DNA from: Geodermatophilus pulveris
GTDB taxonomy: Bacteria > Actinomycetota > Actinomycetes > Mycobacteriales > Geodermatophilaceae
DNA length: 64,000 bases
Direction: 5' to 3'
NCBI RefSeq assembly: GCF_900188375.1
Contig: NZ_FZOO01000011.1
Span: 62,001 to 126,000, forward strand
The notes beneath the pieces are model-generated. The model was given only the letters and a program-made list of their open reading frames with translations. It had not been told where the DNA came from and ran no database searches. Both the position numbers and the translations under genes were made by a program. This document shows, piece after piece, positions 4,073 to 51,138 of the stretch (within the stretch, counting starts at the first letter, position 1; every line of letters starts with the position of its first letter).

Positions 4073-5290
4073 ATGAGCACCCTCCTGCCGCCGGACGCGC
4101 CGCCGCGGACCCTGCCGCTCCCCGACGGCGCCCGCGCGGGGCTGTCCCGCGCGCCCTTCGGGCTGTACGTGCACGTGCCGTTCTGCGCCACCCGCTGCGG
4201 CTACTGCGACTTCAACACCTACACCGCCGAGGAGCTGGGCCCGGGCGCCGCCCGCAGCGAGTACGCCGGCACCGCGATCGCCGAGCTGCGCCAGGCCGCC
4301 GAGACCCTCGGCCCGGACCTGCCGACCGTCGCCACGGTCTTCGTCGGCGGGGGCACCCCGACGCTGCTGCCCGCCGACGACCTGGCCGCCGTCCTCGCCG
4401 AGGTCCGGCGGCTGTTCCCCGTCGCCGACGACGTCGAGGTCACCACCGAGGCCAACCCGGAGACGGTGACCCCGGACTCGCTGGCCACCCTGCGCGCGGC
4501 CGGCTTCACCCGGGTCAGCCTGGGCATGCAGTCCGCCGCCGAGCACGTGCTCGCCGTCCTCGACCGCCGGCACACGCCCGGCCGCGCCGTCGCCGCCGCC
4601 CACGAGGCCCGCGCGGCCGGCTTCGAACACGTCAACCTGGACCTCATCTACGGGACGCCGGGGGAGACCCGCGCCGACTGGGCCGCCTCGCTGGACGCCG
4701 TCCTGGCCGCGCCGGTCGACCACGTGAGCGCCTACGCCCTCATCGTCGAGGAGGGCACCCGGCTGGCCCGCCGCATCGCCCGCGGCGAGCTGCCCATGAC
4801 CGACGACGACGTGCTGGCCGACCGGTACGAGCAGGCCGACGCGACCCTGCGCGCCGCCGGCCTGGACTGGTACGAGGTGTCCAACTGGGCGCGCGGGCCG
4901 GCCGCGCGCTGCCGGCACAACGAGCTGTACTGGACCGGCGCCAACTGGTGGGGGGTCGGGCCCGGCGCGCACAGCCACGTCGGCGGGCTGCGGTGGTGGA
5001 ACGTCAAGCACCCCGCCGCGTACGCCGGGCGGCTGCTGCGCGGGGAGAGCCCCGTCCAGGACACCGAGCTGCTCGACGACCACGACCGCGCCCTGGAGAC
5101 GGTGATGCTGGGGCTGCGGCGGCGCGAGGGCCTGCCGCTGACCGCGCTGTCCGACGCCGGCCGGCTGCGCGCCGCCGGCGCCGTCGCGCGCGGCCTGCTC
5201 GAGCCGCGCGCGCACGCGGCCGGCCGGGCCGTGCTCACCGACCGCGGCCGGCTGCTCGCCGACGCCCTGGTCCGCGACCTGACCGACTGA
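4073..5290 (+). CDS. hemW: HemW-type radical SAM protein (coproporphyrinogen III oxidase-like)
   Basis: A 405-residue radical SAM protein. YVHVPFCATRCGYCDFNTY holds the CxxxCxxC cluster ligands (Cys38, Cys42, Cys45), followed by GGGTPTLL near residue 97 and the family segments HVNLDLIYGTPGET and SNWARGPAARCRHN. HemW is now seen as a haem chaperone rather than the oxygen-independent oxidase HemN. Start ATG 4073 has an upstream GGGGGCAG. In actinobacteria hemW often lies beside hrcA-dnaJ; here about 7 kb of other genes separate them. The hairpin repeat at 5292-5352 follows the stop. Confidence 0.93.
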   Translation: MSTLLPPDAPPRTLPLPDGARAGLSRAPFGLYVHVPFCATRCGYCDFNTYTAEELGPGAARSEYAGTAIAELRQAAETLGPDLPTVATVFVGGGTPTLLPADDLAAVLAEVRRLFPVADDVEVTTEANPETVTPDSLATLRAAGFTRVSLGMQSAAEHVLAVLDRRHTPGRAVAAAHEARAAGFEHVNLDLIYGTPGETRADWAASLDAVLAAPVDHVSAYALIVEEGTRLARRIARGELPMTDDDVLADRYEQADATLRAAGLDWYEVSNWARGPAARCRHNELYWTGANWWGVGPGAHSHVGGLRWWNVKHPAAYAGRLLRGESPVQDTELLDDHDRALETVMLGLRRREGLPLTALSDAGRLRAAGAVARGLLEPRAHAAGRAVLTDRGRLLADALVRDLTD

Positions 5291-5482: not shown

Positions 5483-5701
5483 GTGGCGCGACGGGTGCGC
5501 GCAGAATGTCGCGATGATCCCTCCAGAACGACACGCCCGGGCGGTGGTGGTCTCGCGCTCGCGTTCGTCCTCCTGCACGTCGGGCTGGTCGCCGTGATCG
5601 CGGCCCACGTGCTCTTCGACGCGGTCGTCCTCAGATCCCACTCCCAGGTGGTGGCGGACCGGCCACTCCCCGACAGGGTCGTCCAGGGCGTGGCGGCGTG
5701 A
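5483..5701 (+). pseudogene. Possible C-terminal remnant of a CPBP-family membrane protein
   Basis: A short frame of 72 codons whose middle (LALAFVLLHVGLVAVIAAHVLFDAVVL) is one hydrophobic helix ending in an HxxxD pattern, as in the last motif of CPBP intramembrane proteases. The rest of such a protein (EExxxR and FxxxH motifs) is absent upstream, where the frame is closed by a stop at 5435. The stop overlaps the GTG of the ABC exporter (GTGA), so it could be coupled to it. It may equally be non-coding; the family assignment rests on one short motif. Confidence 0.3.
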
Positions 5702-7503
5702 TCCCCGCCGGGCCGGGCTGCCCCGGGGAGACGGCGGCAGACGGAGGCGTCCTCCCCTTCGCGGACGAACCGCGCGCGGGCCTCGCCGAGCTGTGGGGGA
5801 TCCTGCGGCCGGTCCGGGGCGTCCTCGTCGCAGGAGCCCTGCTCGCCCTGCTCGGTGCCGTGGCGTCGTTGCTCCAGCCACTGCTGATGACCCGGCTCAT
5901 CGACGCCGCGACGACCCAGCGCTCCCTCGCCGTGCCGCTCGCCGCTCTCGCTGCCGTGTTCCTGCTCGACGGGGTCCTCACGGGTCTCCAGTCGTTCGTG
6001 CTGCTCCGCGGTGGTGAGTCGCTGGCGCTCTCGATCCGTGAACGGATGATCCGGAGGATCGTGTTCTGGCGGTTGAGGTCCCACGAGAGGTTCCGCTCCG
6101 GCGACCTGATCGCGCGCGCCGGCAACGACGTGGCCAGCCTGCGGGCCATCGTGAGCGAGGGGGCGGTCGACCTCTTCGGCGCCGTCCTCTCCTTCGCCGG
6201 CGCCGTCGTCCTGATGCTGTACATCGACCCGGTGCTCTTCCTGGTCAGCACCGCCGTCATGGCCATGGCCGCGGTCGTCGTGGTGGCGTTCCTCGTCCGC
6301 ATCAAGGACGCGACCGAGACCTCACAGCGCGAGGTGGGTGCGATGTCGGCCGACCTCGACCGGGCGCTCTCGGGGATGCCCACCGTGATCACCGCGGACA
6401 TGCGCGCCTTCGAGTACGACCGCATCACCGGTCGCGCCGTCGCCGCCTGCACCGCCGGGCGACGGGCCGCGGCGTGGGAGGCCCTCGTCGCACCCGTGCT
6501 GCTGACCGGCGCCAACGCCGCCTTCCTGGTCCTCTTCGGGGTGGGAGGCGTCCGGGTCGCGAACGGCACGACCGACCTCGCCGCCTTCATCTCCTTCCTG
6601 CTCTACTTCGCCATCCTCGTCACGCCGCTGATCGTGTCGTTCCAGGCGATCACCACGATCCAGCGCGGTCTGGGGTCCCTGCAGCGGATCCAGGAGGTCC
6701 TCGACGAGCCGAGCGACGAGGACACCGTCGGAGCCCCCCGCTCGCGGGTCGCCCATGGCGTGCGGGACTCCGGGTCCGACGGTGCAGCGCCCCTCGGCCG
6801 TCCGATCTCGGTCGAGTTCGACGACGTCACCTTCGCCCACGCCGGAGACCGCAGCCCGCTGTTCGCGGGTCTCGGCCTGCACGTCCCGCCCGCCACGGTC
6901 ACGGCGGTGACCGGGCCGTCGGGGCAGGGCAAGACGACGTTGCTGTCCCTCCTGCTCCGCCTCGACGACGTCGACGGAGGGACGATCCGGCTGAACGGGG
7001 TGCCCCTCGACGAGATCGGCGAGGTCGACCTCCGCCGCGCCGTGGCCTACGTCCAGCAGGACGCCCCGCTGTTCTGGGGGACGCTGCGCGACAACCTCAC
7101 CTACGGCGCCCGTGACTGGACCGAGGCCGACGTCTCCGACGTGGTCGATCGGCTCGGCCTCGGCTACCTCGTGCGGGGGCTGCCGGAGGGGCTCGACAGC
7201 GAGGTCGGGGACCGCGGGGTCCGGTTGTCCGGCGGTGAACGTCAGCGGATAGCGCTCGCCCGGGCGGTGCTCCGCCGGCCGCGTCTGCTGGTGCTCGACG
7301 AGCCGACCTCCCAGATCGACGGGGAGGCCGAGGTCCTGGTGGTGGCGGAGCTGGTCCGCCTGAAGCAGCGGTGCACCGTGGTGCTCACCTCCCACCGCGA
7401 CACCACCGTCGGAGCGGCGGACGTCGTCGTCGACCTGGCGGCCTGCCCAGGGGTCGGCGCCGGGACCGGAGCCTCGCCTCCGGTGTCCGGGGCGGCGCGC
7501 TGA
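5698..7503 (+). CDS. ABC transporter, fused permease and ATPase (exporter type)
   Basis: A 601-residue half-exporter. About six membrane segments occupy residues 30-330 and the ATPase follows: Walker A GPSGQGKTT near residue 406, signature LSGGERQR near 511, Walker B LLVLDEP near 532, H-loop LTSHRD. Members of this MsbA/LmrA-like class act as dimers; with no second half-transporter nearby a homodimer is likely. Between the two domains is a loosely conserved Ser/Gly-rich linker (residues about 345-365). Start GTG 5698 overlaps the previous short frame by four bases. Cargo is unknown. Confidence 0.85.
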   Translation: MIPAGPGCPGETAADGGVLPFADEPRAGLAELWGILRPVRGVLVAGALLALLGAVASLLQPLLMTRLIDAATTQRSLAVPLAALAAVFLLDGVLTGLQSFVLLRGGESLALSIRERMIRRIVFWRLRSHERFRSGDLIARAGNDVASLRAIVSEGAVDLFGAVLSFAGAVVLMLYIDPVLFLVSTAVMAMAAVVVVAFLVRIKDATETSQREVGAMSADLDRALSGMPTVITADMRAFEYDRITGRAVAACTAGRRAAAWEALVAPVLLTGANAAFLVLFGVGGVRVANGTTDLAAFISFLLYFAILVTPLIVSFQAITTIQRGLGSLQRIQEVLDEPSDEDTVGAPRSRVAHGVRDSGSDGAAPLGRPISVEFDDVTFAHAGDRSPLFAGLGLHVPPATVTAVTGPSGQGKTTLLSLLLRLDDVDGGTIRLNGVPLDEIGEVDLRRAVAYVQQDAPLFWGTLRDNLTYGARDWTEADVSDVVDRLGLGYLVRGLPEGLDSEVGDRGVRLSGGERQRIALARAVLRRPRLLVLDEPTSQIDGEAEVLVVAELVRLKQRCTVVLTSHRDTTVGAADVVVDLAACPGVGAGTGASPPVSGAAR

Positions 7504-7590: not shown

Positions 7591-8496
7591 ATGGAGCAGC
7601 TCTCGGTCGGCGAGGTGGCCGCCCGGCTCGGCGTGTCGCCGTCGGCGGTGCGCATGTGGGGGACCCGCTACGGGCTGGTCGCCTCGGCCCGGTCCACGGG
7701 GGGCCACCGCCGGTACACGGCGGAGGACGTCGCCCTGCTCCAGGCCGTGCACGAGGCCGTGCTCTCCGGCACCGACCCGGCGGCGGCGGCCGCCGCCGTG
7801 CGCGGCATCGAGGACGTCGAGGGCGCCTCCGACGGCCCGCGGCGCCGCGCCGGCGCGGGCGGCACCGGGCTGGCCGTGCCCGGTGCCGGCAGGGCGGCTC
7901 GGGGCCTGGCCCGGGCCGCCGCCCGGCTGGACGAGATGCGCGCCGAGGACGCCGTGCTGACCGCGCTGCGTGCCAGCGGCACCCTGACCGCCTGGGACGA
8001 GGTCGTCCGGCCGGTGCTCATCGCCGCCGGCGCGCACTGGGCCAGCACCGGGGCCGGGATCGAGATCGAGCACCTGCTCACCCAGGCGGTGACCACGGCG
8101 CTGGTCCGGCACGCCGCGACGCTGCCCGAGCCGCCGTCGGAGCGGCCGGTGCTGCTGGCCGGCGGCCCACGGGAGGAGCACGTCATCCCGCTGTACGCGG
8201 CCCGGGCGGCGCTCACCGAGGCCGGTGTCCCCTCCCGCCTGCTGGGCCCGCGCACGCCCGTGGCGGCGCTGGCCACCGCGGCCCGACGCACCCGGGCCGC
8301 CGCCGTCCTGGTGTGGCTGAGCCGGCCCGACGACGACGCCGTGCAGGGGCTGCCCGAGCTCGCCGCCGCGCACCGGCGGGTGCGCGTGCTGGTCGGCGGC
8401 CCGGGCTGGGACGGCGTCGACACCGGGCCGGCCGCGGTGCCCGCAGACCTCGGCGCGGCCGTCGAGGCGCTCCGGCAGGCCTGGCGCGGCACGTAG
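7591..8496 (+). CDS. MerR-family regulator with cobalamin-binding domain (CarH/LitR-like photoreceptor)
   Basis: A 301-residue protein. Residues 1-70 are a MerR winged helix (LSVGEVAARLGVSPSAVRMW, then GGHRRYT). A low-complexity linker leads to a helical plus B12-binding region. Residue W150 is followed after nine residues by E160-H161, the W-x9-EH motif that marks adenosylcobalamin-dependent light sensors such as CarH. EEH (E195-E196-H197) fits the ExHxxG lower-ligand motif, though the Gly is Pro200 here. CarH-type proteins repress promoters in the dark and release DNA after photolysis of the Co-C bond. Its place directly upstream of the opsin and blh genes suggests it controls them. The start was set at ATG 7591 because the HTH begins there. 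Confidence 0.85.
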   Translation: MEQLSVGEVAARLGVSPSAVRMWGTRYGLVASARSTGGHRRYTAEDVALLQAVHEAVLSGTDPAAAAAAVRGIEDVEGASDGPRRRAGAGGTGLAVPGAGRAARGLARAAARLDEMRAEDAVLTALRASGTLTAWDEVVRPVLIAAGAHWASTGAGIEIEHLLTQAVTTALVRHAATLPEPPSERPVLLAGGPREEHVIPLYAARAALTEAGVPSRLLGPRTPVAALATAARRTRAAAVLVWLSRPDDDAVQGLPELAAAHRRVRVLVGGPGWDGVDTGPAAVPADLGAAVEALRQAWRGT

Positions 8497-8525
8497 CCCG
8501 ACGGTGGACGGCACGCCGCACAATC

Positions 8526-8555
8526 TTGCACAACTTCGCTGATCGGGTGCATGCT
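8526..8555 (+). promoter_or_regulatory. Putative opsin promoter with overlapping inverted repeat
   Basis: TTGCAC (8526-8531), an 18-bp spacer and CATGCT (8550-8555) resemble -35 and -10 boxes ahead of the opsin gene. TGCAC (8527-8531) and GTGCA (8547-8551) form an inverted repeat that spans the promoter, the geometry expected of a MerR/CarH-type operator. Only five-base arms are visible, so operator function is speculative. Confidence 0.33.
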
Positions 8556-8624
8556 CGGGTCGCGGTCGGTACTGCCGGCCGTCCCGACAACCGGCAACGA
8601 CGCCGAAAACCTGGAGCCGCCGTC

Positions 8625-9497
8625 ATGGGCACTGACACTGGGATCTCGGTCCCGGAGCTCTCCGCAGTCCAGTACTCGACCGTGTACAACCTGTTCAGCC
8701 TGGTCATCGCGTCGATGATCTTCACGGCGCTGTACCTGCTCTTCTCGCGCGGCCGAGTAGCGCCGCGCTACCGCAACGCGCTCGTGGTGTCGGCGATCGT
8801 CTGTGGCATCGCCGCGTACCACTACATCCGGATCTTCGACAACTTCCAGGCGAGCTACCCGGCGGGGGCGACCATCGCCGACCCCCACCTGCTCTCCAAC
8901 GTGGAGTTCAACGAGGGCTACCGGTACGTCGACTGGCTGCTCACCGTCCCGCTGCTGCTCATCGAGACGGTGGCGGTCATGGCGCTGGCCAAGAGCGAGG
9001 CACGCAAGCTGCTGTGGAAGCTGGTCCCGGCGTCGGCGGCGATGATCGCGCTCGGGTACCCGGGCGAGATCACCAGCGAGGTCGGCCCCCGGCTGCTGTG
9101 GGGGACGCTGTCGACGATCCCGTTCATCTACCTGCTGTGGGTGCTCTTCGTCGAGCTGACCAGGTCCATCGACCGCCAGCCGCCGCAGGTGCAGCACACC
9201 ATCAAGATGCTGCGGCTGGCGCTGGTCGGGCTGTGGGGCGTCTACCCGATCGCCTACCTGTTCCCGGTCATCGGCGGTGACTTCTTCGGCGGATCGGACG
9301 GCTTCGTCCTGCGGCAGGCCGGCTACAGCATCGCCGACATCCTCGCGAAGGCGGCCTACGGTCTGGCCATCTACAAGATCGCGCGGGTGAAGAGCTCGCT
9401 GGAGGACCCGGCGTACGACGACGACCACGCCGTGCCCGGGCCCGGGGACGGCACGGCGGCCCGGCCCACCCCCGGCCGTGACACCGTCGCGGCCTGA
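8625..9497 (+). CDS. Microbial rhodopsin, outward proton pump (proteorhodopsin/xanthorhodopsin type)
   Basis: A 290-residue seven-helix retinal protein. Helix C reads YRYVDWLLTVPLLLIE: D103 (proton acceptor), T107 and E114 (donor) form the DTE motif of outward H+ pumps. H66 (AYHYIRIF) matches the His that pairs with the acceptor Asp. The Schiff-base lysine is K242 in DILAKAAYG. L111, at the colour-tuning site, predicts green absorption. LGYPGE and LWGTLSTIPF in helix E, with Gly160, resemble xanthorhodopsin-like pumps whose helix E glycine opens space for a carotenoid antenna; that assignment is inference. Start ATG 8625 has GGAG eight bases upstream. Retinal would come from the next gene. 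Confidence 0.93.
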   Translation: MGTDTGISVPELSAVQYSTVYNLFSLVIASMIFTALYLLFSRGRVAPRYRNALVVSAIVCGIAAYHYIRIFDNFQASYPAGATIADPHLLSNVEFNEGYRYVDWLLTVPLLLIETVAVMALAKSEARKLLWKLVPASAAMIALGYPGEITSEVGPRLLWGTLSTIPFIYLLWVLFVELTRSIDRQPPQVQHTIKMLRLALVGLWGVYPIAYLFPVIGGDFFGGSDGFVLRQAGYSIADILAKAAYGLAIYKIARVKSSLEDPAYDDDHAVPGPGDGTAARPTPGRDTVAA

Positions 9498-9526
9498 CCC
9501 AGAGCGGTCGTCGTGACCGTCGCACC

Positions 9527-9560
9527 GCGGACCGCCGCCGCTTCCGCGGCGGCGGTCCGC
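9527..9560 (+). terminator. Perfect 15-bp hairpin between opsin and blh
   Basis: GCGGACCGCCGCCGC (9527-9541), loop TTCC, and its exact complement (9546-9560). It begins 30 bp after the opsin stop and ends about 55 bp before the preferred blh start. There is no U tract, as is usual for actinobacterial terminators. It could stop most transcripts after the opsin or protect the opsin 3' end, giving more opsin than Blh. Confidence 0.55.
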
Positions 9561-9614
9561 CCGCCCGCCGGAACTGCGCCCGTCCCGCGGCCCCGCGCGC
9601 TGCAGGAACTGCCG

Positions 9615-10514
9615 GTGCTCACCCGGCTGCCGGTGGCCGTCCTGGCCGCGGTGCTCGCCCTGAGCGTGCTCGCCCCGGGGACGGCGGCCGCCGTCGCGCT
9701 GCCGGTGGCCGTGGTCGGGGCCGTCGTCGGCATCCCGCACGGCGCCGCGGACCACCTGGTCCCCTGGTGGTGGTCCGGTGGCCGGCAGGCCCCGCGGCGC
9801 ACCCTCGCCCTGGTCACCGCCGGCTACGCGGCCGTCGCCGCCGCGGCCGCCGCGGCGCTGCTGCTGCTCCCCACCCCGGCGCTGGCCGCGGCCCTGGTGC
9901 TCTCCGCGGTCCACTTCGGCCGCGGCGAGGTGGTCGCCTGGGCCGAGCGGGCCGGCCGGCCGGTGCCCGGCCCGGCCACGGACCTGCTGCCGTGCGCCGC
10001 GCACGGGCTGGCCGTCGTCGGCCTGCTGCTGTGGGTCGACCCGGCCACCACCGACCCCTGGGTGAGGGCGCTGTCGCCCGGCATCGCCGACGCCGCGCTG
10101 GCCAGCCGCACGCCGGGGCTCCTGCTGGTCGCGGTGACGGTCGCCGCCGCGACGGCGTGGCTGCTCGCCCGGGGGCGGGTGCGCGACGCCGGCGAGCTCC
10201 TGCTGGTCGCCGCCGTCTTCGCGGTCGCCCCGCCGCTGGCGGCCTTCGGCGCCTACTTCGGCCTCTGGCACGCCGTCCGGCACACCGGCCGACTGCTCGA
10301 CCTCGCCCGCCCCGCCGGGGGAGGACCGGGGTGGGGCCCGGCGGTCCGCCGGCTCGCCCGGGCCGGCGCGCTGCCGAGCGCCGTCGCGCTGGCCGCGGTG
10401 GCGGCGCTCTGGCAGCTGGGCGACGTCGCGGGCCTGCAGGCCCAGGTCAGCGTGCTGCTGGCGCTGACCTTCCCCCACGCCGCCGTCGTCTGGGCCCTCG
10501 ACCGCCGCGGGTGA
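9615..10514 (+). CDS. blh: Brp/Blh-family beta-carotene 15,15'-dioxygenase (retinal synthesis)
   Basis: An integral membrane enzyme that cleaves beta-carotene into two retinals. Family histidines are visible in GIPHGAADH, SAVHFGRGE and FGLWHAVRH, which supply the non-haem iron ligands. About eight hydrophobic segments are present. Two starts are possible. GTG 9513 gives 333 residues but places a perfect hairpin inside the first codons. GTG 9615 has AGGA seven bases upstream, begins just before the first membrane helix and gives 299 residues, the usual family length, so it is preferred. Pairing with the upstream opsin is the standard opsin-Blh partnership. Beta-carotene synthesis genes are not in this window. 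Confidence 0.88.
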   Translation: MLTRLPVAVLAAVLALSVLAPGTAAAVALPVAVVGAVVGIPHGAADHLVPWWWSGGRQAPRRTLALVTAGYAAVAAAAAAALLLLPTPALAAALVLSAVHFGRGEVVAWAERAGRPVPGPATDLLPCAAHGLAVVGLLLWVDPATTDPWVRALSPGIADAALASRTPGLLLVAVTVAAATAWLLARGRVRDAGELLLVAAVFAVAPPLAAFGAYFGLWHAVRHTGRLLDLARPAGGGPGWGPAVRRLARAGALPSAVALAAVAALWQLGDVAGLQAQVSVLLALTFPHAAVVWALDRRG

Positions 10515-10518
10515 CCCG

Positions 10519-10538
10519 GGCCTGACGGATGTCAGGCC
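10519..10538 (+). terminator. Hairpin after blh
   Basis: GGCCTGAC, loop GGAT, GTCAGGCC: an exact 8-bp stem starting four bases after the blh stop and upstream of the histidine kinase. It probably closes the light module. Confidence 0.55.
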
Positions 10539-10593: not shown

Positions 10594-11754
10594 GTGCACG
10601 TCGAGAGCGGTCCCGCGCCGGTGCGGTCCCGGCCCGGCCCCGCGGACCCCCGGCCGCGCTGGTACCGCCTGAGCTGGGCGCTGCCCTGGCTCCTGTTCCA
10701 GTTCTTCCCCGTCGCCGACCTGGTGACCACCGACCGGCCGCCCGCCGTCCGGCTCGCCGCCGGCGCCGGGCTGGTGGTCTTCACCGCCGTCTACCTCGAC
10801 GTCTTCCGCCGGGCCTTCGGCGGCGGCGGCGGCGGCAGCGGGGACCGCGGCCCGGTGCTGGGCCGGCTGGCGGTCGTCGCCGGCCTCGGCCTCGTGCTTG
10901 CCGCGACGATGGGGCCGCCGTGGGCCGGGCTGCTCATCTACGTGTCCGCAGCCGCGGCGGCGGCGCTGCCCCAGCGCTGGGTGTGGCCGGCCGTGCTGGC
11001 CGCGGCCGCCGTGTGCGCCGCGGTGGTCACCCTCGGCGGGGACGGCGGGCCGCTCATCCTGCCGGTGATGTGCCTGCTCACCGCCTTCGCGCTGCGCGGC
11101 ACCCGCCACCTGGTCTCGGTCAACGCCGAGCTGGTGGAGGCCCGCGACGAACTGGCCCGCTCCGCCGTCGCCGAGGAGCGGCTGCGCTTCGCCCGCGACC
11201 TGCACGACCTGCTCGGGCACAGCCTGTCGCTCATCGCGCTGAAGTCCGAGCTGGCCGGCCGGCTGGCCGAGCGCGATCCCGCCCGCGCCCGAGCCGAGAT
11301 GGCCGACGTCGAGGCTGCCGCCCGCCGCGCGCTGGCCGAGGTCCGGGAGGCGGTCAGCGGCTACCGGCAGGTCGGCCTCGCCCTGGCGCTCGCCGAGGCC
11401 CGCGCCGCCCTGTCCGCCGCCGGCGTCGGCCTGTGGGCGCCGTCGGCCGTGCCCGACCTGCCCGGTCCGGTCGACGCCGTGCTCGGCTGGGTGGTGCGCG
11501 AGGCGACGACGAACACGCTGCGGCACAGCGGCGCCCGCACGCTCACCGTCGGCCTGTCCCGCTCCGGGGAGGACCTCGTCCTGACCGTCACGGACGACGG
11601 CCGCGGCCCCGGCGGCCCGCCGGGCGCGGGGCTGACCGGGTTGGCCGAGCGGCTGCGCGGGTTCGGCGGCCGGCTGGAGCACGGCCCGGCGCCAGGCGGC
11701 GGGTTCCGGCTGGCCGCCCGGCTGCCCGCGGCCGACCGGGTGGGTGCCCGGTGA
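10594..11754 (+). CDS. Sensor histidine kinase, HisKA_3 (DesK/NarX-like)
   Basis: A 386-residue kinase. About five membrane helices lie between residues 25 and 175 with almost no extracytoplasmic domain, so the signal is probably sensed in or at the membrane. The dimerisation helix has RDLHDLLGHSLSLIALK with the phospho-acceptor His. The ATPase domain has the N box (REATTNTLRHSG) and G boxes (TDDGRG, GLTGLAERL). Start GTG 10594. It overlaps the response regulator by four bases (GTGA), so the pair is co-translated. DesK homologues sense membrane fluidity; the signal here is unknown. Confidence 0.9.
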   Translation: MHVESGPAPVRSRPGPADPRPRWYRLSWALPWLLFQFFPVADLVTTDRPPAVRLAAGAGLVVFTAVYLDVFRRAFGGGGGGSGDRGPVLGRLAVVAGLGLVLAATMGPPWAGLLIYVSAAAAAALPQRWVWPAVLAAAAVCAAVVTLGGDGGPLILPVMCLLTAFALRGTRHLVSVNAELVEARDELARSAVAEERLRFARDLHDLLGHSLSLIALKSELAGRLAERDPARARAEMADVEAAARRALAEVREAVSGYRQVGLALALAEARAALSAAGVGLWAPSAVPDLPGPVDAVLGWVVREATTNTLRHSGARTLTVGLSRSGEDLVLTVTDDGRGPGGPPGAGLTGLAERLRGFGGRLEHGPAPGGGFRLAARLPAADRVGAR

Positions 11755-12356
11755 TCCGGGTGCTGGTCGCCGAGGACCAGGCGATGGTCCGCGGCGCGCT
11801 GCGGGCGCTGCTGGAGCTGGAGGAGGACATCGCCGTCGTCGCCGAGGTCGGCCGCGGGGACCTGGTCGTCGACGCCGCCCGGGAGCACCGGCCCGACGTC
11901 GCGCTGCTGGACATCGAGATGCCCGGCTGCGACGGGCTGGAGGCCGCCCGGGCGCTGGCCGCGGCGGTCCCCGGCTGCCGGGCCGTCGTCCTCACCACGT
12001 TCGGCCGCCCGGGCTTCCTGCGCCGCGCGATGGAGGTGGGTGCCGCCGGGTTCCTGGTCAAGGACGCGCCGGTCGCCGAGCTGGCCCGCGCCATCCGCGC
12101 CGTCGTCGCCGGCGAGCGGGTGATCGACCGGGACCTGGCCGCCGCGGCGCTGGCGCTCGGCGCGACGCCGCTGTCCACCCGGGAGGCCGACGTGCTGCGC
12201 GCCGCCGCCGACGGCGCGACGGTCGCCGACATCGCCCGGGGGCTGTTCCTGTCCGAGGGGACGGTGCGCAACTACCTGTCGTCGGCGATCGGCAAGACCG
12301 GCGCGCGGACCCGGGTCGAGGCCGCGCGGGTGGCCGCCGACAAGGGCTGGCTCTGA
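11751..12356 (+). CDS. LuxR/NarL-family response regulator (DesR-like)
   Basis: A 201-residue regulator. The receiver domain has the acidic pair (AEDQAM), the phospho-acceptor Asp in VALLDIEMPG, the switch Thr in LTTFG and the Lys in VKDAP. The C-terminal HTH has LSTREADVLRAAADG and FLSEGTVRNYLS. It partners the upstream kinase. Start GTG 11751 overlaps the kinase stop. The stop is followed at once by hairpin repeat copy B. Confidence 0.92.
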   Translation: MIRVLVAEDQAMVRGALRALLELEEDIAVVAEVGRGDLVVDAAREHRPDVALLDIEMPGCDGLEAARALAAAVPGCRAVVLTTFGRPGFLRRAMEVGAAGFLVKDAPVAELARAIRAVVAGERVIDRDLAAAALALGATPLSTREADVLRAAADGATVADIARGLFLSEGTVRNYLSSAIGKTGARTRVEAARVAADKGWL

Positions 12357-45715: not shown

Positions 45716-45788
45716 TCCCCCGTAGCTCAATTGGCAGAGCATGCGACTGTTAATCGCAGGGTTATTGGTTCGAGTCCAATCGGGGGAG
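45716..45788 (+). tRNA. tRNA-Asn (GTT)
   Basis: 73 bases fold as a complete cloverleaf: acceptor TCCCCCG/CGGGGGA, D arm GCTC/GAGC, anticodon arm TGCGA-CTGTTAA-TCGCA with anticodon GTT, T arm ATTGG-TTCGAGT-CCAAT, discriminator G. CCA is not encoded. Its 3' part is duplicated at 56222-56259, so it has served as an integration site. Confidence 0.97.
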
Positions 45789-45789
45789 C

Positions 45790-46504
45790 AAAACCGCAGG
45801 TCAGACGGCAGCCAGCTCCTTGAACGTCCGAGCGGGCCATGGAAAACCCATGATCTAGGTGCGGATCCTGGCGCCTCAGCGAGCTGCGGTCGGATCAGCG
45901 CAGTCGCGGAGCTCGATGGGCCAGTCGATGCCGGACGCCAGGCAGCCGAGGTGCCGGGGGAGGATCAGGCTCAGCTTGGCGGGTCGGCAAGGTCGCCACC
46001 ACCGGCGCCGCCGCTGTCCTCGAGACGCTCGGCTCCTGACCGGCATGACGGACCAGCAAACTCCTGTCCGCCACGACGCTCGCAGTACAGAGCGACGGAG
46101 TCCTGGGTCGCATAGCCGGACTTCTGATGCGTGGACGCGCCGCGCGGATCCTTAAATGCTGTGTGAGCACGCTCGTGTTGGAGGAGCTCGGACCGGCGGC
46201 GGATGACCAGCTGTCGCACCTCCCCGTTGCTGGATGAGTGCACACTCCTGTCGCGTAGTTCCCCGAGCAGCGCGATGCCTCGCGCGCATGGGACGAAGTC
46301 CTCGCTAGCCGCAGCGGAGGATCGGCCGTCCGGTACGCCGTTCCAGACTGGCCCACGTTTGGGGTCAGCGCCAGATACGCCCTATTCCATTCGCCGTATG
46401 ACGACACCTCGGATGGCAGGTTTCCTCTGGTTGTGAGAAGGCCCCGGGACTCATCGTCACGAGACCGTTCAGCACACACCGGCTTCCTGCGGATTGCGCA
46501 CCTC
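45790..46504. other. Low-GC stretch after tRNA-Asn, no convincing gene
   Basis: About 700 bp with visibly lower GC than the core genes. Open frames are short or lack recognisable motifs and start signals. It is probably decayed mobile or foreign DNA at the head of the island. Confidence 0.5.
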
Positions 46505-47274
46505 TCAGCCGATGCGCAAAGCGATTCGATCCACGTGACTCTTCACCCAAGCCCTGTAGTTCGCGACTCCTCGCCTGTACTCGACAGCCTCCCCCTCGAC
46601 ATCCACCTCCGGCTTGGGGATGCCTCCTGGGATCATCTCGAATAGCCCGAGCTCCAGATGTGGATCTAGTCCTCTGTGACAAGTGTGGCATGGGGTTATC
46701 AGGTTGCCCGGCTCAGTCAGCCCCCTTTGCCGTGCGGCCAGATATGGTGCACGTGCAGCTCAAGGCCGACGTAATCGGCAGACCGCCGGCCACAGGCTCT
46801 GCAGCGGTAGTCGTCTCGCCTCAACACATCCATGCGAAGTTTTGGAGTAGGCGCATGCCGTAGAGCTTTCGGTTGCACATCTGCCATCGAGCGGACACCC
46901 CACCAGCTTGGCGCACACTCGACGGGCTCGAAGAGTCTCGGAAATCGTCCTCGAGCGATGGACTCCTCAACATGAGCATTGCCTCCGGCGCGCAGGAAGA
47001 ACGAAAGTGTTCCGAGGTCAGCGACTACAATCGACGTCTGGCCGACGTCTCCCCATGCTCTGCGCATGCTAAGCGCGTTGACCGGAGCGGAGACCCTCAA
47101 CTCCCAATAGGGCTTTGCGCCTGGGCCCACATATATCGTTTGGCTTGCCCAGCGGATGTGGCCATCGTCTGTCGCGGTCAGAGTCAACGCGTAGTAGATC
47201 GCATCAAGATCAACGCGGGCCAGGGCGCTTCGCAGCCGGGTCGCCGTCCCTTCGTCCAGGGCCATGCCTCCCAT
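46505..47274 (-). pseudogene. HNH endonuclease-domain protein, frameshifted
   Basis: From ATG 47274 (or 47265) an N-terminal domain of about 150 residues precedes a zinc HNH region: KLRMDVLRRDDYRCRACGRR, then LHVHHIWPHGKGG. The frame stops at 46717, right after a run of five G. The -1 frame then carries the missing half: LTEPGNLITPCHTCHRGLD, which supplies the Asn, the second His and CxxC, and runs to a stop at 46505. One extra G would restore a protein of about 255 residues. Codon use is far less GC-biased than the core genes, consistent with transfer. Confidence 0.7.
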
Positions 47275-47775
47275 CTTCCCTGGCACCAGTGACGCGTCCA
47301 ACGCGACTCGTCCATGGTCCACGGGTTGCGCCGCCCCTGGGGTGGCCGGTGGCGAAGCCGGTGTTTGGATGGGGGCGCAGCCCACCCCTGGGGACGACCA
47401 AGACGACGACCGACGCGATGAGGACGCCATCGATCCGGGCGGCAACGAGCCGCTGACCCGGGAAGGCGGCCGCGGCCACCGTGATTAGAGCGGGGTTGAA
47501 TGCGTTGGCCAGTGCCGCACGAGACCCGCTGATGCCTGGCACCGCCCAACGCCGCGACGGCGTCCCAGAATGCCTCGGCGCCCAAGCCCGGCCCGGCCGC
47601 CGGTAAGCCGGTCGAGCGGGCTGCGGCCTTGGTCAACGCGGCAGGCGGCAGGTCGGCCACGGTCGGGAACATGCGCAGCCGCTCACTTGCGGGCGACGAT
47701 CGTCAGCAGGGACCAGGTGTCGGCAGAGCCAGCTTGGTAAGGGTGGCCCCGCATGGTGACGTAGCCGAATCCACG
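47275..47775. other. Intergenic remnant region
   Basis: About 500 bp between two pseudogenes. Short minus-strand frames (for example near 47480-47672, ADLPPAALTKAAARSTGLP) look protein-like, but no complete domain can be named. Probably debris of decayed genes. Confidence 0.4.
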
Positions 47776-48228
47776 ATGAGCCGTATGTCGGTTGAGGGGC
47801 GAACTCAAGACCTCGTGGTAGTTGTGCCGGGCATCTTGCGCTCGGCGCTCCACCGTGACGGCGAGCCTGTATGGGACTTTCACCCGTCCCGGCTGCGCCG
47901 GACGCTGGCCACGGCCCGCCACGGGGCCTAGCCCTGTCCGCGGACGAGGCCGGCCCTGCGCACGATGGCGTTGTGGCAACCAGGCTCGTGGCAGGACTGC
48001 GACTCTTGCGCGGCCTGACTGCCGTGCACGGTTGCCGGGCCATGCTGGAGGCTCTGCGGAGCAGGCGCCCGGCACAAGGACGGCGTGGTGGAGTTCCCGT
48101 ACGACTGGCGCTTGGCCGGTGGAGGTTGGGCGGTCGTCCGCCGACTAAACCGGGTCGAGCTGTTGCAGGAGACCGTCCGGCTGCGGCGGGTTGGTGCGGC
48201 GCAAGCAGGCGCAGATGACGTAGGCTAA
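47776..48228 (+). pseudogene. LCAT-like esterase/lipase, N-terminal part, multiply frameshifted
   Basis: From ATG 47776 the frame encodes DLVVVVPGILRSALHRDG, the oxyanion strand of LCAT-like esterases. The match then moves frame to DGVVATRLVAGLRLLRGLTA and again to KDGVVEFPYDWRLAGGG, the family hallmark VEFPYDWRL, ending at 48228. The catalytic Ser, Asp and His regions further on are absent. In actinobacteria this esterase family often occurs with peptidase and STAND-type conflict systems, but none is intact here. Confidence 0.62.
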
Positions 48229-48253
48229 ACACCCGCGCGGAAGCCATTTGCAA

Positions 48254-49240
48254 CTACCAGCCAGGGGCCCGGTAGTACTCGAATCGGATACCCTCCTGTT
48301 CCACCAGTACGATAACGGGCGCTCCGGGCGCCCATTCACGCGGAAGCAGGAAGTGGCGATCCTCCGACCTGATCAAGAAAACCAGTCCTTCGTACCCGTA
48401 TTGATAGGCCCCCTCTTCCCCCGATAGCTGGATCTCAGTGATTCCCGGCCCGCTGACGCTGAGTGGGCTTGCACTGAGGACGCGAACGTAGGGTTGGGAC
48501 TCCAGGCTGAGGGACACGGCCCGCGCGACCTTAGTACCGCGCTCCTGAAGGTAGATTGAAAGGCCCCCGAATAGGGCCCCCAAGATGAGTGCGACCACAG
48601 CCAATTGGGCGACAGGTCCGAAGCTATCGTGCCGCCCGGTGTAGGTTCGGGCACGCAGAGCCAAGCCGTAGAAGCTCACCGCAAGACCGGCGGCCAAGAG
48701 TAGCCAAAATACGGCAGGGTTTGGCACGTAACCCGCAACGCCGAAGGCTAGCGCAGCAGCAGTCCCTGCTTGGCAGAGCCCAATCCACGTAATAGTCCCC
48801 AGGATCCGTCGCCGGATGAGAGGGCTCTTCTTCTGTAGCGCACCGACGAGTTGAGGATGAATGAGGGCGAAGATGGCCGTCAGGAAGCCCGCCAGCATGA
48901 TAGGGGAGAGCGCGGACCCGGCGGCCCGAACAACGTACTGGGCTGTCGAGAACTCAACTAGTGACGACGGTACGCCAAAGTATCGCAATGTCGCGCCCGT
49001 CTGGACGTACCCGACGTAGTACGCCAAAGCTGTCAAGCCACCCACTTGTCCTGCGAAGAATCCAACCGCTGCTCGAACTGAGATGGGCTCCTGGATGACC
49101 TCGGCTGCCTCCGAAACCGCTTCTCCGTTCTCTGCAAGGGAGGGCGCCTGTCCTGCTCCCCTCTTCGAGGTGCGCCATCTGGTATGTCCCACTGTCGTGG
49201 GGCGGATCCTCACACGTTGCGTGTCTTGCCTCCCCGCCAT
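48254..49240 (-). CDS. Unknown multi-pass membrane protein of the island
   Basis: 328 residues, intact. A cytoplasmic start of about 55 residues is followed by roughly five helices (AGFFAGQVGGLTALAYYVG-type, PIMLAGFLTAIFALI, GLCQAGTAAALAFGVAG, WLLLAAGLAVSFYGLAL, LAVVALILGALFGGLSIYL) and an extracytoplasmic or cytoplasmic domain of about 85 residues ending FEYYRAPGW. No family is recognised. Codon use is less GC-biased than the core genes, so it was probably acquired. Nearby genes are decayed, so its intactness suggests selection or recent arrival. Confidence 0.65.
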   Translation of the reverse strand: MAGRQDTQRVRIRPTTVGHTRWRTSKRGAGQAPSLAENGEAVSEAAEVIQEPISVRAAVGFFAGQVGGLTALAYYVGYVQTGATLRYFGVPSSLVEFSTAQYVVRAAGSALSPIMLAGFLTAIFALIHPQLVGALQKKSPLIRRRILGTITWIGLCQAGTAAALAFGVAGYVPNPAVFWLLLAAGLAVSFYGLALRARTYTGRHDSFGPVAQLAVVALILGALFGGLSIYLQERGTKVARAVSLSLESQPYVRVLSASPLSVSGPGITEIQLSGEEGAYQYGYEGLVFLIRSEDRHFLLPREWAPGAPVIVLVEQEGIRFEYYRAPGW

Positions 49241-49356
49241 CCCCCATAGGTACTCCCTGGTGACAGGAAGTACCTAGAGGCTTCGGTAACTAATGCCTGG
49301 ACACCGTATGGCTGACCCGGCGGAGCGGATCGGGCAACTAGGGCCTGTCCCGCGGA

Positions 49357-50231
49357 TCATGTGCTGAGCCAGAGCACGGCGCTGACCAGCAGCAGGATCG
49401 CGCGGTAGAAGGCAGCGCGCTTGGCGTAGCGGGTGGCCAGGGCGCGGAACTGCTTGAGCCGGTTGAAGCAGCGTTCCACGACGTTGCGCTGCTTGTAGCG
49501 GTCACGGTCGAAGTTCGGTGGTCGTCCACCGGCCGAGCCGAGGCCTCGCCGGCGCGCCTGCTGGTCGCGCTTCTCCGGAATGGTGTGCCCGATGCCGCGG
49601 CGGCGCAGCGCCCGACGGGTCGAGGGGTGGGAGTAGACCTTGTCCGCGATCAGCTGATCGGGGCGCTTGCGGGGTCGGCCCGCTCCGACCCGAGGCACTC
49701 GGATGTCATCCAGCAGGGGCAGCAGCTGGGGGTTGTCTCCGGCCTGCCCGGGAGTCAACCGCACCAACAGCGGCCGACCGCGGCCGTCGACGGCCAGGTG
49801 CACCTTGAAAGTCAGCCCGCCGCGGGAGCGCCCCAGCGCCTCCCCGTCGACGGCGAGGGCCTCGACCGCAGCGCTGCAGCCCCCTTTTTCCGGGCGCCAG
49901 CGGCGTGCTGGTGGGCCCGGACGTTGGAGGAGTCCACGCTGATCGTCCACTCGACCGCGCCGACGGCGTCGTCCTTGACGACCACGTGCTCCAGGATGCG
50001 TTCCCAGGTGCCATCGGCGGTCCACTTCCGCAGCCGTTCATGCACGGTCTTCCAGGGCCCGTAGCGCTGGGGCAGGTCCCGCCAGGGCACACCGGTGTGG
50101 GCATGCCACAGGATGCCGTTGATCACCTGCCGGTGATCCCGCCACCGCCCGCCCTGACCACCGGTCACCGGCAGCAACGGCTGGATGCGGGCCCAGGACG
50201 CGTCGGTGAGCTCGTGTCGGCCAACCATCAC
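49357..50231 (-). CDS. IS5-family transposase OrfAB, made by -1 frameshift
   Basis: The first frame (50231 to 49812) gives the HTH and first catalytic Asp (ISVDSSNVRAHQHA). The second frame, -1, reaches a stop at 49357 and gives the second Asp (LIADKVYSHPSTRR) and Glu (ERCFNRLKQFRALATRY). The heptamer AAAGGGG at 49887-49881, read A-AAG-GGG in the first frame, is a classic slippery site exactly where the frames meet. The fusion is about 290 residues, a complete DDE transposase. Confidence 0.82.
49812..50231 (-). CDS. IS5-family OrfA (unshifted product)
   Basis: 139 residues read without frameshifting: ELTDASWARIQPLLP, the DUF4096-type N-terminal domain (GVPWRDLPQRYGPWKTVHER), and a short out-of-frame tail after the slippery site. 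Such OrfA proteins can repress transposition. Start GTG 50231 or ATG 50228. Confidence 0.72.
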   Translation of the reverse strand: MMVGRHELTDASWARIQPLLPVTGGQGGRWRDHRQVINGILWHAHTGVPWRDLPQRYGPWKTVHERLRKWTADGTWERILEHVVVKDDAVGAVEWTISVDSSNVRAHQHAAGARKKGAAALRSRPSPSTGRRWGAPAAG

Positions 50232-50274
50232 TCAAGCCTGAATTACGCGGACGGAAGATCGCCAGGACAGGCCC

Positions 50275-50838
50275 TAGTCGCTTGAGGGCGTGCAGCCAGG
50301 TGAAGCCGCGCTCGACCACCCAGCGCTGGCGGCCCAGGCCGGAGCCGTGGGCAACACCGCGGCGGGCGATCCGCGCGGTGATGAGACGGGCGCGCAGCTG
50401 GCGCCGGGATGCCGCCGGCGTCGCAGATCAGGTGGTGCTCGGAACGCGGCCGGCCGCGGTCGACCGGGGACGGGACGACGTGGCCCCCTTTGAGCGCGCG
50501 CACGTGGGAACCGTCGACCGCGCAACAGTCCGGGTCCAGCGCCCCGGCGCCGCGCAGCTCGGCGAGCAGCAGCTCGTGCAGGACTGGCCAGACGCCGGCT
50601 TCGCTCCAGTCCCGCAGCCGCCGCCAGCAGGTCACCTCCGAGCAGCCGACCAGGGAGCTGGGCAGCTGGTTCCAGGCGATGCCGGCTTTCAGGACGAACA
50701 CGATCCCGGCCAGCGCAGCGCGGTCGTCGATCGGCCGGCGACCCGGACAGCAGTAGCGGTGCGGCTCGGACGGCGTGAAGCAGCGCAGCGACCCGCCCCC
50801 ACCAGCCGTCAGGGGGTCAGTTCCTCGGCGATGGCTGA
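50275..50838 (-). pseudogene. Older IS5-family transposase, deleted and interrupted
   Basis: The minus strand encodes AALAGIVFVLKAGIAWNQLP, CSEVTCWRRLRDWSEAGVW, a catalytic-type AVDGSHVRALKGG and EHHLICDAGGIPA. About 70 residues are then missing and the frame changes to IARRGVAHGSGLGRQRWVVE, with the final Glu region, before it is cut by the 49341-50274 element. The N-terminal end (from about 50838) is also frameshifted. It is a dead element that served as target for the younger IS. Confidence 0.7.
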
Positions 50839-51138
50839 CACGCCATGTCGACGCGCAGACGAACTCGACAGTGGTGGACTCCGCTCACCGTCGCTGCCAG
50901 GCCGTGTCCGGGCGAGCGGGCGCTGCGATCGGCGTGTCGCGAAACACGCGGGACACACGTTCGACATCGCCGCGAGATACTCGGGAGGCTCCATCCGGTG
51001 CGTCACGGCGCGCCGCGCCGCGCCGGGACCGCGGCCTGTGCGGGCTCCAGCGCCTTGATCGCCTCCGTTGGACGGGACGAATGTCCGCCTGGCCCGAGGG
51101 GCCGAGTGGCCCTCCGCCGGTGCACCCGGAGGTCCGAC

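Follow-up and report, generated by a model that had tools for sequence, protein, structure and literature searches.

A conserved actinobacterial cassette linking a CarH-like regulator to a DTE-type rhodopsin and a retinal-forming enzyme

Genes of the cassette in Geodermatophilus pulveris

We analysed a 64,000-nucleotide stretch of the Geodermatophilus pulveris genome (hereafter the window), in which three genes follow one another on the forward strand. These encode a CarH-like MerR/B12-domain regulator (P0001, 301 aa; 7591-8496), a DTE-type rhodopsin of the xanthorhodopsin/Gloeobacter-rhodopsin kind (P0002, 290 aa; 8625-9497), and the Brp/Blh-family beta-carotene 15,15'-dioxygenase Blh (P0003, 333 aa, GTG start; 9513-10514). 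The regulator stop and the opsin start are separated by 128 bp, and the opsin stop and the blh start by 15 bp. The first-pass annotation had placed the three genes side by side in 7591-10538; the genes were as described, and the right-hand end lies 24 bases beyond the blh stop. An Rfam search of the whole window returned one tRNA and nothing else. Two sets of flanking genes were considered and excluded from the module: downstream, a histidine kinase and a response regulator (10594-12356) are retained in a genome that has lost the opsin (G043), and the upstream ABC transporter is missing between hemW and the regulator at three loci (L067, L068, and L076).

The opsin matched the Pfam family Bac_rhodopsin (4.8e-40), and its relatives in the PDB were 9hfk, 6nwd, 9wfa, and 3ddl. 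The motif D103/T107/E114 (DTE) and the retinal Lys K242 bore out its earlier description as a DTE-type opsin, for which outward proton pumping is predicted. Both features are shared with xanthorhodopsin and Gloeobacter rhodopsin (3ddl, 6nwd), as are the His near the proton acceptor and the Gly opening the carotenoid fenestration; the opsin differs from these proteins in that its cassette brings a regulator of its own. Residues H66, D103, T107, E114, G144, and K242 were unchanged in the opsins of all 18 cassettes described below, and by analogy Gly144 would permit a carotenoid antenna.

The third gene product scored above the cut-offs of both Pfam BCD (PF15461, 9.1e-36) and NCBIfam blh_monoox (TIGR03753; 140.1 bits vs 95.25), which upheld the first reading as Blh, and its linkage is the sole difference that we noted from known Brp/Blh beta-carotene dioxygenases. 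It was the only match to its Pfam family found in this genome, whereas a second opsin gene lies elsewhere in the same genome. Because there are two opsins and one blh, control of blh may also determine how much retinal the second opsin receives. The squalene/phytoene synthase family has a single match in the genome, on another contig. To call the module a self-contained switch was therefore an overstatement, since the retinal precursor must be made elsewhere and the single blh stands against two opsins.

The regulator matched MerR_1 (1.3e-11) and B12-binding_2 (23.7 bits; cut-off 23), its B12-binding score of 21.6 bits was under the cut-off of 32.1, and its 82.9 bits against the NCBIfam CarH equivalog NF052513 were far below the cut-off of 400. 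The best structural matches of an AlphaFold2 model (pLDDT 90.7) were photocobilin and CarH domains, and the model matched CarH of Thermus thermophilus (TtCarH) over its full length, including the MerR HTH, four-helix bundle, and Rossmann B12 domain that also characterise class I LitR. Sequence and predicted fold both mark the regulator as CarH-like. Photocobilins and the MerR B12 domain of Chloracidobacterium (8j2x, 8j2w, 8jbt, 8jbs) are also among the nearest known proteins. In photocobilins a biliverdin-binding domain follows the B12 domain, and they are not known to have a MerR HTH.

Linkage and distribution of the cassette

Among 112 genomes of the family, the regulator (full length, at least 46% identity) and the opsin (at least 69%) occurred in the same nine, and the order regulator-opsin-blh on one strand was kept in all nine intact family cassettes. 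The same order, for which a search of relatives had been suggested at first pass, recurred across families: the best 80 of 155 opsin loci were examined, and the distinct cassettes total 18, from several families of actinobacteria, each counted singly notwithstanding kinship among them. Six further loci (L087, L091, L094, L097, L098, and L099) were excluded because their contigs are equal in length to those of G050, G065, G100, G099, G083, and G092, which they duplicate, and the available upstream DNA was less than 1 kb in L128, L153, L158, and L162 and about 2 kb in L101. The hosts include Geodermatophilus obscurus DSM 43161, Modestobacter sp. VKM Ac-2985, and Nocardioides rubriscoriae DSM 23986, and in one of the 18 cassettes an RPE65-type oxygenase replaces Blh. 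In two genomes the loss of this opsin goes with loss of the B12 domain from the regulator and of the dyad site described below. The linkage of regulator and opsin is beyond chance.

A search of the order detected a regulator homologue at 1e-12 in 201 of 397 genomes, and one of the 22 returned loci outside the family had an opsin within 1.5 kb (L177, G129). The opsin was detected at 1e-70 in 64 of 394 genomes in a class search and in 3 of 396 in a phylum search, the window's genome included; among the 31 new opsin loci from these searches, some of which reach contig ends, the regulator was present only in L252. No close relative was found on plasmids for either the regulator (74 records) or the opsin (3 records), all being below 60% identity. 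A metagenome-assembled genome titled Spirochaetaceae (L088) was rejected as a case of spread to another phylum, since a cassette from the window's own class (G524/L252) gave nearly the same HMM bits; the two are probably the same record. Pairwise distances were correlated between regulator and opsin only moderately (Spearman 0.46, 18 cassettes), and between regulator and blh (0.77) and opsin and blh (0.62) across 15 cassettes; none of 2000 permutations reached any of these values.

A conserved dyad upstream of the opsin

A 14-bp dyad, AACTTGYRCAASTT, was located within 300 bp upstream of the opsin in 18 of 18 cassettes (at most two mismatches); among 65 opsins that lack the regulator, one has such a site. 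The consensus of the dyad was derived from the same cassettes that were later scored. We checked it with these regulator-less opsins (66, minus L162, which has 24 bases upstream), with an unguided count, and with held-out matrices. A matrix built from the family beat all but one of the 65 controls for eight of the nine other cassettes, and the reverse matrix did so for only four of the nine family cassettes, so that the test is one-sided. In the window, phylogenetic footprinting placed a putative operator, ATCTTGCACAACTT, at 8523-8536 on the forward strand, which has one mismatch to the dyad and is the genome's only place with at most one. The first-pass annotation had named the gap at 8497-8624 as the regulator's target; a conserved operator-like dyad does lie there, and we treat it as a candidate site. 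The conservation of the dyad is a new observation, and we infer from it that the regulator may bind there.

Several individual cases qualify this pattern. The site falls inside the 3' end of the regulator in G129, and in G000 and G100 a looser form of the pattern was not exact either, with one mismatch at the cassette. L089 has a site with two mismatches, yet the regulator is missing from the 5 kb upstream. The looser pattern at one mismatch and the stricter one at two were rarer than reversed controls, so weaker places carry no meaning. A single exact looser-pattern place was found off a cassette (G065, C45), and the DNA around it, when read, showed no evident relation to light.

Within one family the cassette occurs in two or more kinds of genomic setting, and the regulator tree crosses families; both point to transfer, and the genes might travel as a cassette without any regulatory tie. 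Such co-travel is highly improbable in our judgement, given that the dyad accompanies regulator-bearing cassettes and that one regulator clade pairs with two unrelated retinal-forming enzymes.

The dyad would overlap a -35 element in 12 of the 18 cassettes, the window not among them, a placement shared with CarH and class I LitR. In CarH operators the 11-bp TnnACA repeat stands three or four times in tandem, whereas here there is one 14-bp dyad. The 200 bp before the opsin contain one TnnACA core in the window and exactly one in 14 of 18 cassettes; a run of two occurs in one cassette, and the window lacks the tandem arrangement of 11-bp nnnnTnnACAn repeats. A TA hexamer at the expected -10 spacing is missing in six cassettes, including that of the window and those of two sisters close to it. 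The lack of a clear -10 there, and the regulator's membership of the MerR family, whose proteins are often activators, would also suit a light-dependent activator of the opsin-blh promoter instead of a repressor. MerR activator sites, however, lie between -35 and -10, whereas the dyad, where a -10-like hexamer is seen, would by its inferred placement end on the -35, and we regard activation as very unlikely.

Signature residues and the proposed light switch

The W-x9-EH signature claimed for the regulator was confirmed as W150, E160, and H161, residues kept in all 18 opsin-linked regulators. Its lower-ligand motif reads E195-E-H197-V-I-P200, with the D/E and the His present in 18 of 18 cassettes. 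In the first-pass annotation, Pro instead of Gly in ExHxxG had been taken to hint at altered light chemistry. That reading was rejected, as Pro is usual at this place (in 15 of the 18 opsin-linked rows and in 20 of the 26 others, among which one gene is counted twice) and a survey of myxobacterial CarH gives the classic motif, shared with class I LitR, as D/ExHx2G/P (PMC9304148). These counts come from an alignment and tree of 18 opsin-linked and 26 other rows, hand-chosen from fetched loci (L176 and L212 are one gene). The rows without an opsin also retained W (24/26), E (25/26), H161 (26/26), and H197 (26/26), so these residues do not single out light sensing.

The deviations that may count lie at other residues, namely Ala151, Trp242, and Arg194. 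Ala151 stands at the place of TtCarH His132, the lit-state cobalt cap, where all 18 cassettes have A, E, or Q; TtCarH H132A fails to monomerise after light, and Arg, Gln, or Tyr occupies this place in other light-responsive members, as reported in PMC11796333. Trp242 replaces the Ser of the B12 motif SxT/V, with W in 16 of 18 cassettes, whereas the Nocardioides rubriscoriae regulator (L103) retains S-C-V. CarH itself has the motif Ser, and many CarH proteins, though not all, have a His following the Trp. Of the SignatureFinder light signature, given in PMC11796333 as GxxW, EH, GxxH, and GxxxP, the regulator has GxxW, EH, and GxxxP, and R194-E-E-H in place of GxxH; position 194 is G in 8 of 18 cassettes. 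The LitR-like regulator found with an actinobacterial crt cluster (L223) belongs to the same subfamily and shares the Pro of ExHxxP and the Trp at 242. It differs in its neighbours, which are phytoene-synthase and desaturase-like genes, and in having His for the Trp of W-x9-EH, as does its relative L195, and both fall outside the branch that contains all opsin-linked rows.

Trp242, the missing His132 equivalent, and the sub-threshold B12-binding score would also fit a regulator that controls opsin-blh without sensing light, independently of cobalamin as CarA and class II LitR are, and that answers a partner protein or another signal. CarA is B12-independent and a LOV protein governs a class II LitR (PMC9304148, PMC9758184), and the opsin-less homologues, for which the wider surroundings of 15 stretches were read, include a clade at a groEL locus with no evident tie to light. 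We nevertheless consider this explanation unlikely, as CarA has lost the Trp (PMC9304148), whereas the opsin-linked regulators retain W, EH, and the lower-ligand His throughout, and the gene calls inspected at a few loci showed no further light-sensor gene shared by the cassettes. Rather less likely still is a sensor of cobalamin alone, by which opsin expression would follow adenosylcobalamin supply in light or dark. Related regulators adjoin tetrapyrrole methylases in three genomes of family f2 (assigned by Pfam at L209 and judged by eye from the matching gene order at L210 and L212), and the non-His residue at the His132 place would suit this role. Against it, light-responsive cobalamin regulators without that His exist (PMC11796333), and a B12-only signal would give no obvious reason for the tie to an opsin.

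The reading that we favour, with a probability of roughly 0.6, is that of a local switch of the CarH/LitR type devoted to rhodopsin phototrophy, with repression in the dark and release in light. The regulator, which carries most of the B12 signature residues, is probably a dedicated cobalamin-dependent repressor of opsin and retinal synthesis. In the dark, the adenosylcobalamin-bound protein would occupy the dyad where the opsin-blh promoter begins, thereby blocking transcription; in light, the Co-C bond of the cofactor would split and the regulator would leave the DNA, allowing joint production of the opsin and the retinal-forming enzyme. Counting against such a switch are Ala151, Trp242, RxxH, the NCBIfam score, the non-tandem site, the missing TA hexamer, and the one-sided held-out test, as well as the actinorhodopsin transcript of Rhodoluna lacicola, another actinobacterium with another opsin, which goes down in light and up in the dark (PMC8591293). 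A bolder proposal, to which we give slightly less than even odds, is that several actinobacterial families share a separate branch of cobalamin photoreceptors for rhodopsin phototrophy, which would leave a single 14-bp dyad without a cobalt-capping His.

CarH and LitR are described mainly for light-induced carotenoid production (PMC9758184), with carotenoid genes as targets, whereas the target here would be the adjacent opsin-blh operon. The nearest report was one in which Gloeobacter rhodopsin is reported to act on a transcription factor (PMC11217422), and a Geodermatophilaceae genome announcement reported rhodopsin genes and not the regulator (PMC10190537). Among the titles and abstract openings listed from the open PMC library, no CarH/LitR regulator of an opsin gene was found. 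The clade of regulators, the DNA site, and the hosts named above make it possible to ask by experiment what decides when bacteria produce a rhodopsin pump and its retinal. If the proposed switch is real, one light-sensing pigment, B12, would license the making of another, the retinal-opsin; the cassette would supply a small light switch matched by nature to its pump and would offer a natural test of the need for the lit-state His.

Composition and conservation of the cassette

On the forward strand of the window, which comes from a 4.38-Mb genome, hemW (4073-5290, assigned by eye on the strength of its Pfam domains) and an ABC transporter gene (5698-7503) precede the regulator (7591-8496), the opsin (8625-9497) and blh (9513-10514). 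Genes for a histidine kinase and a response regulator come after blh, and hrcA and dnaJ lie beyond them, all on the same strand; the last three were named by eye from their translations. The identities of regulator, opsin and blh match the first-pass annotation, which had described a module of B12 photoreceptor, rhodopsin and retinal synthase. Elsewhere in the window, at 45716-51000, a tRNA gene is followed by a drop in GC content (0.65 vs about 0.75) with few coding-like frames, and apparent transposase pieces were seen by eye at 49812-50869; this stretch is perhaps the remnant of a mobile element.

Full-length regulators aligning at ≥46% identity were found in 9 of 112 genomes of the family Geodermatophilaceae, and opsins at ≥69% identity in the same nine (≥48% and ≥73%, respectively, in a separate comparison), the remaining opsins listed for the family all being ≤35% identical. 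All nine genomes (the window's and eight relatives) carry regulator, opsin and blh in this order on one strand. The cassette sits behind hemW in the window's genus; in the 14-15 kb stretches from other genera of the family, hemW, kinase, hrcA and dnaJ do not adjoin it. In a scan of named genomes, from which the best 80 of 155 opsin loci were taken, the regulator lay directly upstream on the same strand in 14 of the top 18 loci and in none of the other 62. Removing duplicates and adding genome G129 gave 18 distinct cassettes. Their records are titled as Geodermatophilaceae, Intrasporangiaceae, Dermatophilaceae, Kineosporiaceae and Nocardioidaceae, apart from one that comes from a further genome of the same taxonomic order and one from a bin that is probably mislabelled. 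This bin (L088, JAJAYQ010000179.1, titled Spirochaetaceae) was rejected as evidence of spread to another phylum: a locus from the window's own class (L252, genome G524) has nearly the same HMM bits and probably represents the same bin.

Opsin residues D103, T107, E114, K242, H66 and G144 are each present in 18/18 cassettes, and the closest PDB entries to the window's opsin are 9hfk, Gloeobacter rhodopsin and psXR. Blh comes next after the opsin in 15 cassettes. At L092 the contig ends, and in Nocardioides rubriscoriae (L103) no Blh was found within 5 kb, a photolyase-related gene lying beyond the opsin. In G129 (L213:5918-9419), an RPE65-family carotenoid oxygenase (E 2.6e-96) takes Blh's place, which we read as another route to retinal and an apparent enzyme swap. 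Genome G100 (L069:2058-8353) has one regulator followed by two consecutive opsin-blh pairs, the second opsin reading N-D-Q at its pump motif (RYMNWSIDVPVLLLQ), a pattern associated with sodium pumps.

A conserved dyad ahead of the opsin

The putative operator, a 14-bp dyad AACTTGYRCAASTT, lies 98-164 bases ahead of the opsin match start in the 18 cassettes, within the gap behind the regulator in 17 and inside the regulator's 3′ end in G129. With at most two mismatches it occurs in 18/18 cassettes, compared with 1/65 opsins without the regulator (L089) and 0/90 shuffles. An unguided count of 25,473 dyads of 4+4 bases ranked TTGCACAA/TTGTGCAA first (7/13 representative cassettes vs 0/66 others; p = 5.9e-7 uncorrected, about 0.015 corrected for the dyads tested). 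When a matrix built from each half of the cassettes was used to score the held-out half, 8/9 and 4/9 cassettes outscored the 65 controls with a single exception.

With at most one mismatch, the dyad has a single place in the window's genome, 8523-8536. A search of 12 genomes for the looser pattern AACYTGYRCAASTK gave nine exact matches, of which eight fall at a cassette; exact matches are absent from G043 and G101, which have lost the cassette site, and from G000 and G100, whose cassette sites carry one mismatch. A TA-starting hexamer stands 33-38 bases from the dyad start in 12/18 cassettes vs 16% in shuffles, which would place a normally spaced -35 element partly over the dyad's 3′ end; the six cassettes without such a hexamer include that of the window and those of its two closest sisters.

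Descent and loss

In a regulator tree with 45 rows, whose opsin-free members were our own selection, the opsin-linked label changes three times, and on a quick tree of 84 opsins twice; 0/500 shuffles were as low in either. With a joined partial Thermus thermophilus CarH on a long branch as outgroup, a single branch of 23 rows (97/98 support) takes in all 18 opsin-linked regulators along with a tetrapyrrole-methylase-linked group and L211. Regulators of Geodermatophilus and of Modestobacter/Klenkia/Goekera occupy different parts of this branch, and each group has an Intrasporangiaceae row close by; this placement suggests that the cassette has moved between lineages.

Close regulator homologues at L209, L210 and L212 adjoin tetrapyrrole methylases (identified by Pfam at L209, by eye at the others), taken for cobalamin-synthesis genes; these homologues are possibly cobalamin-linked regulators. 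In the actinobacterial stretches L214-L222, CarH-like paralogues with a mostly intact W-x9-EH lie near groEL, with WhiB-like and GuaB-like neighbours named by eye.

Two genomes have lost the B12 domain, the site and the cassette opsin, and keep a retinal enzyme and another opsin. In G043, the regulator breaks off near codon 56 and continues directly into the opsin gene's 3′ end, with blh kept; in G101, it breaks off near codon 76-85 and continues into the 3′ end of the first blh, and a second opsin remains with its own blh. Since each loss is one deletion, the pair agrees with a functional tie of regulator, site and opsin, without proving it.

Retinal, cobalamin and the expected signal

The window's genome has one blh, a single squalene/phytoene synthase family match, and a second opsin (L082) 32% identical to that of the cassette, with no blh in the surrounding 14 kb. 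The B12-binding family has five matches, four over the cut-off and the fifth being the cassette regulator, so the cell probably uses cobalamin.

A paper on Rhodoluna lacicola, another actinobacterium with a different opsin, describes its actinorhodopsin transcript as down in light and up in dark (PMC8591293). Light induction of the cassette would thus be an expectation drawn from CarH, not from rhodopsin biology. There is good support for a genomic module in which an opsin and retinal operon has a dedicated cobalamin-type regulator with its own conserved site; the best reading of the regulator's signal, at a probability of just under 0.6, is light acting via adenosylcobalamin.
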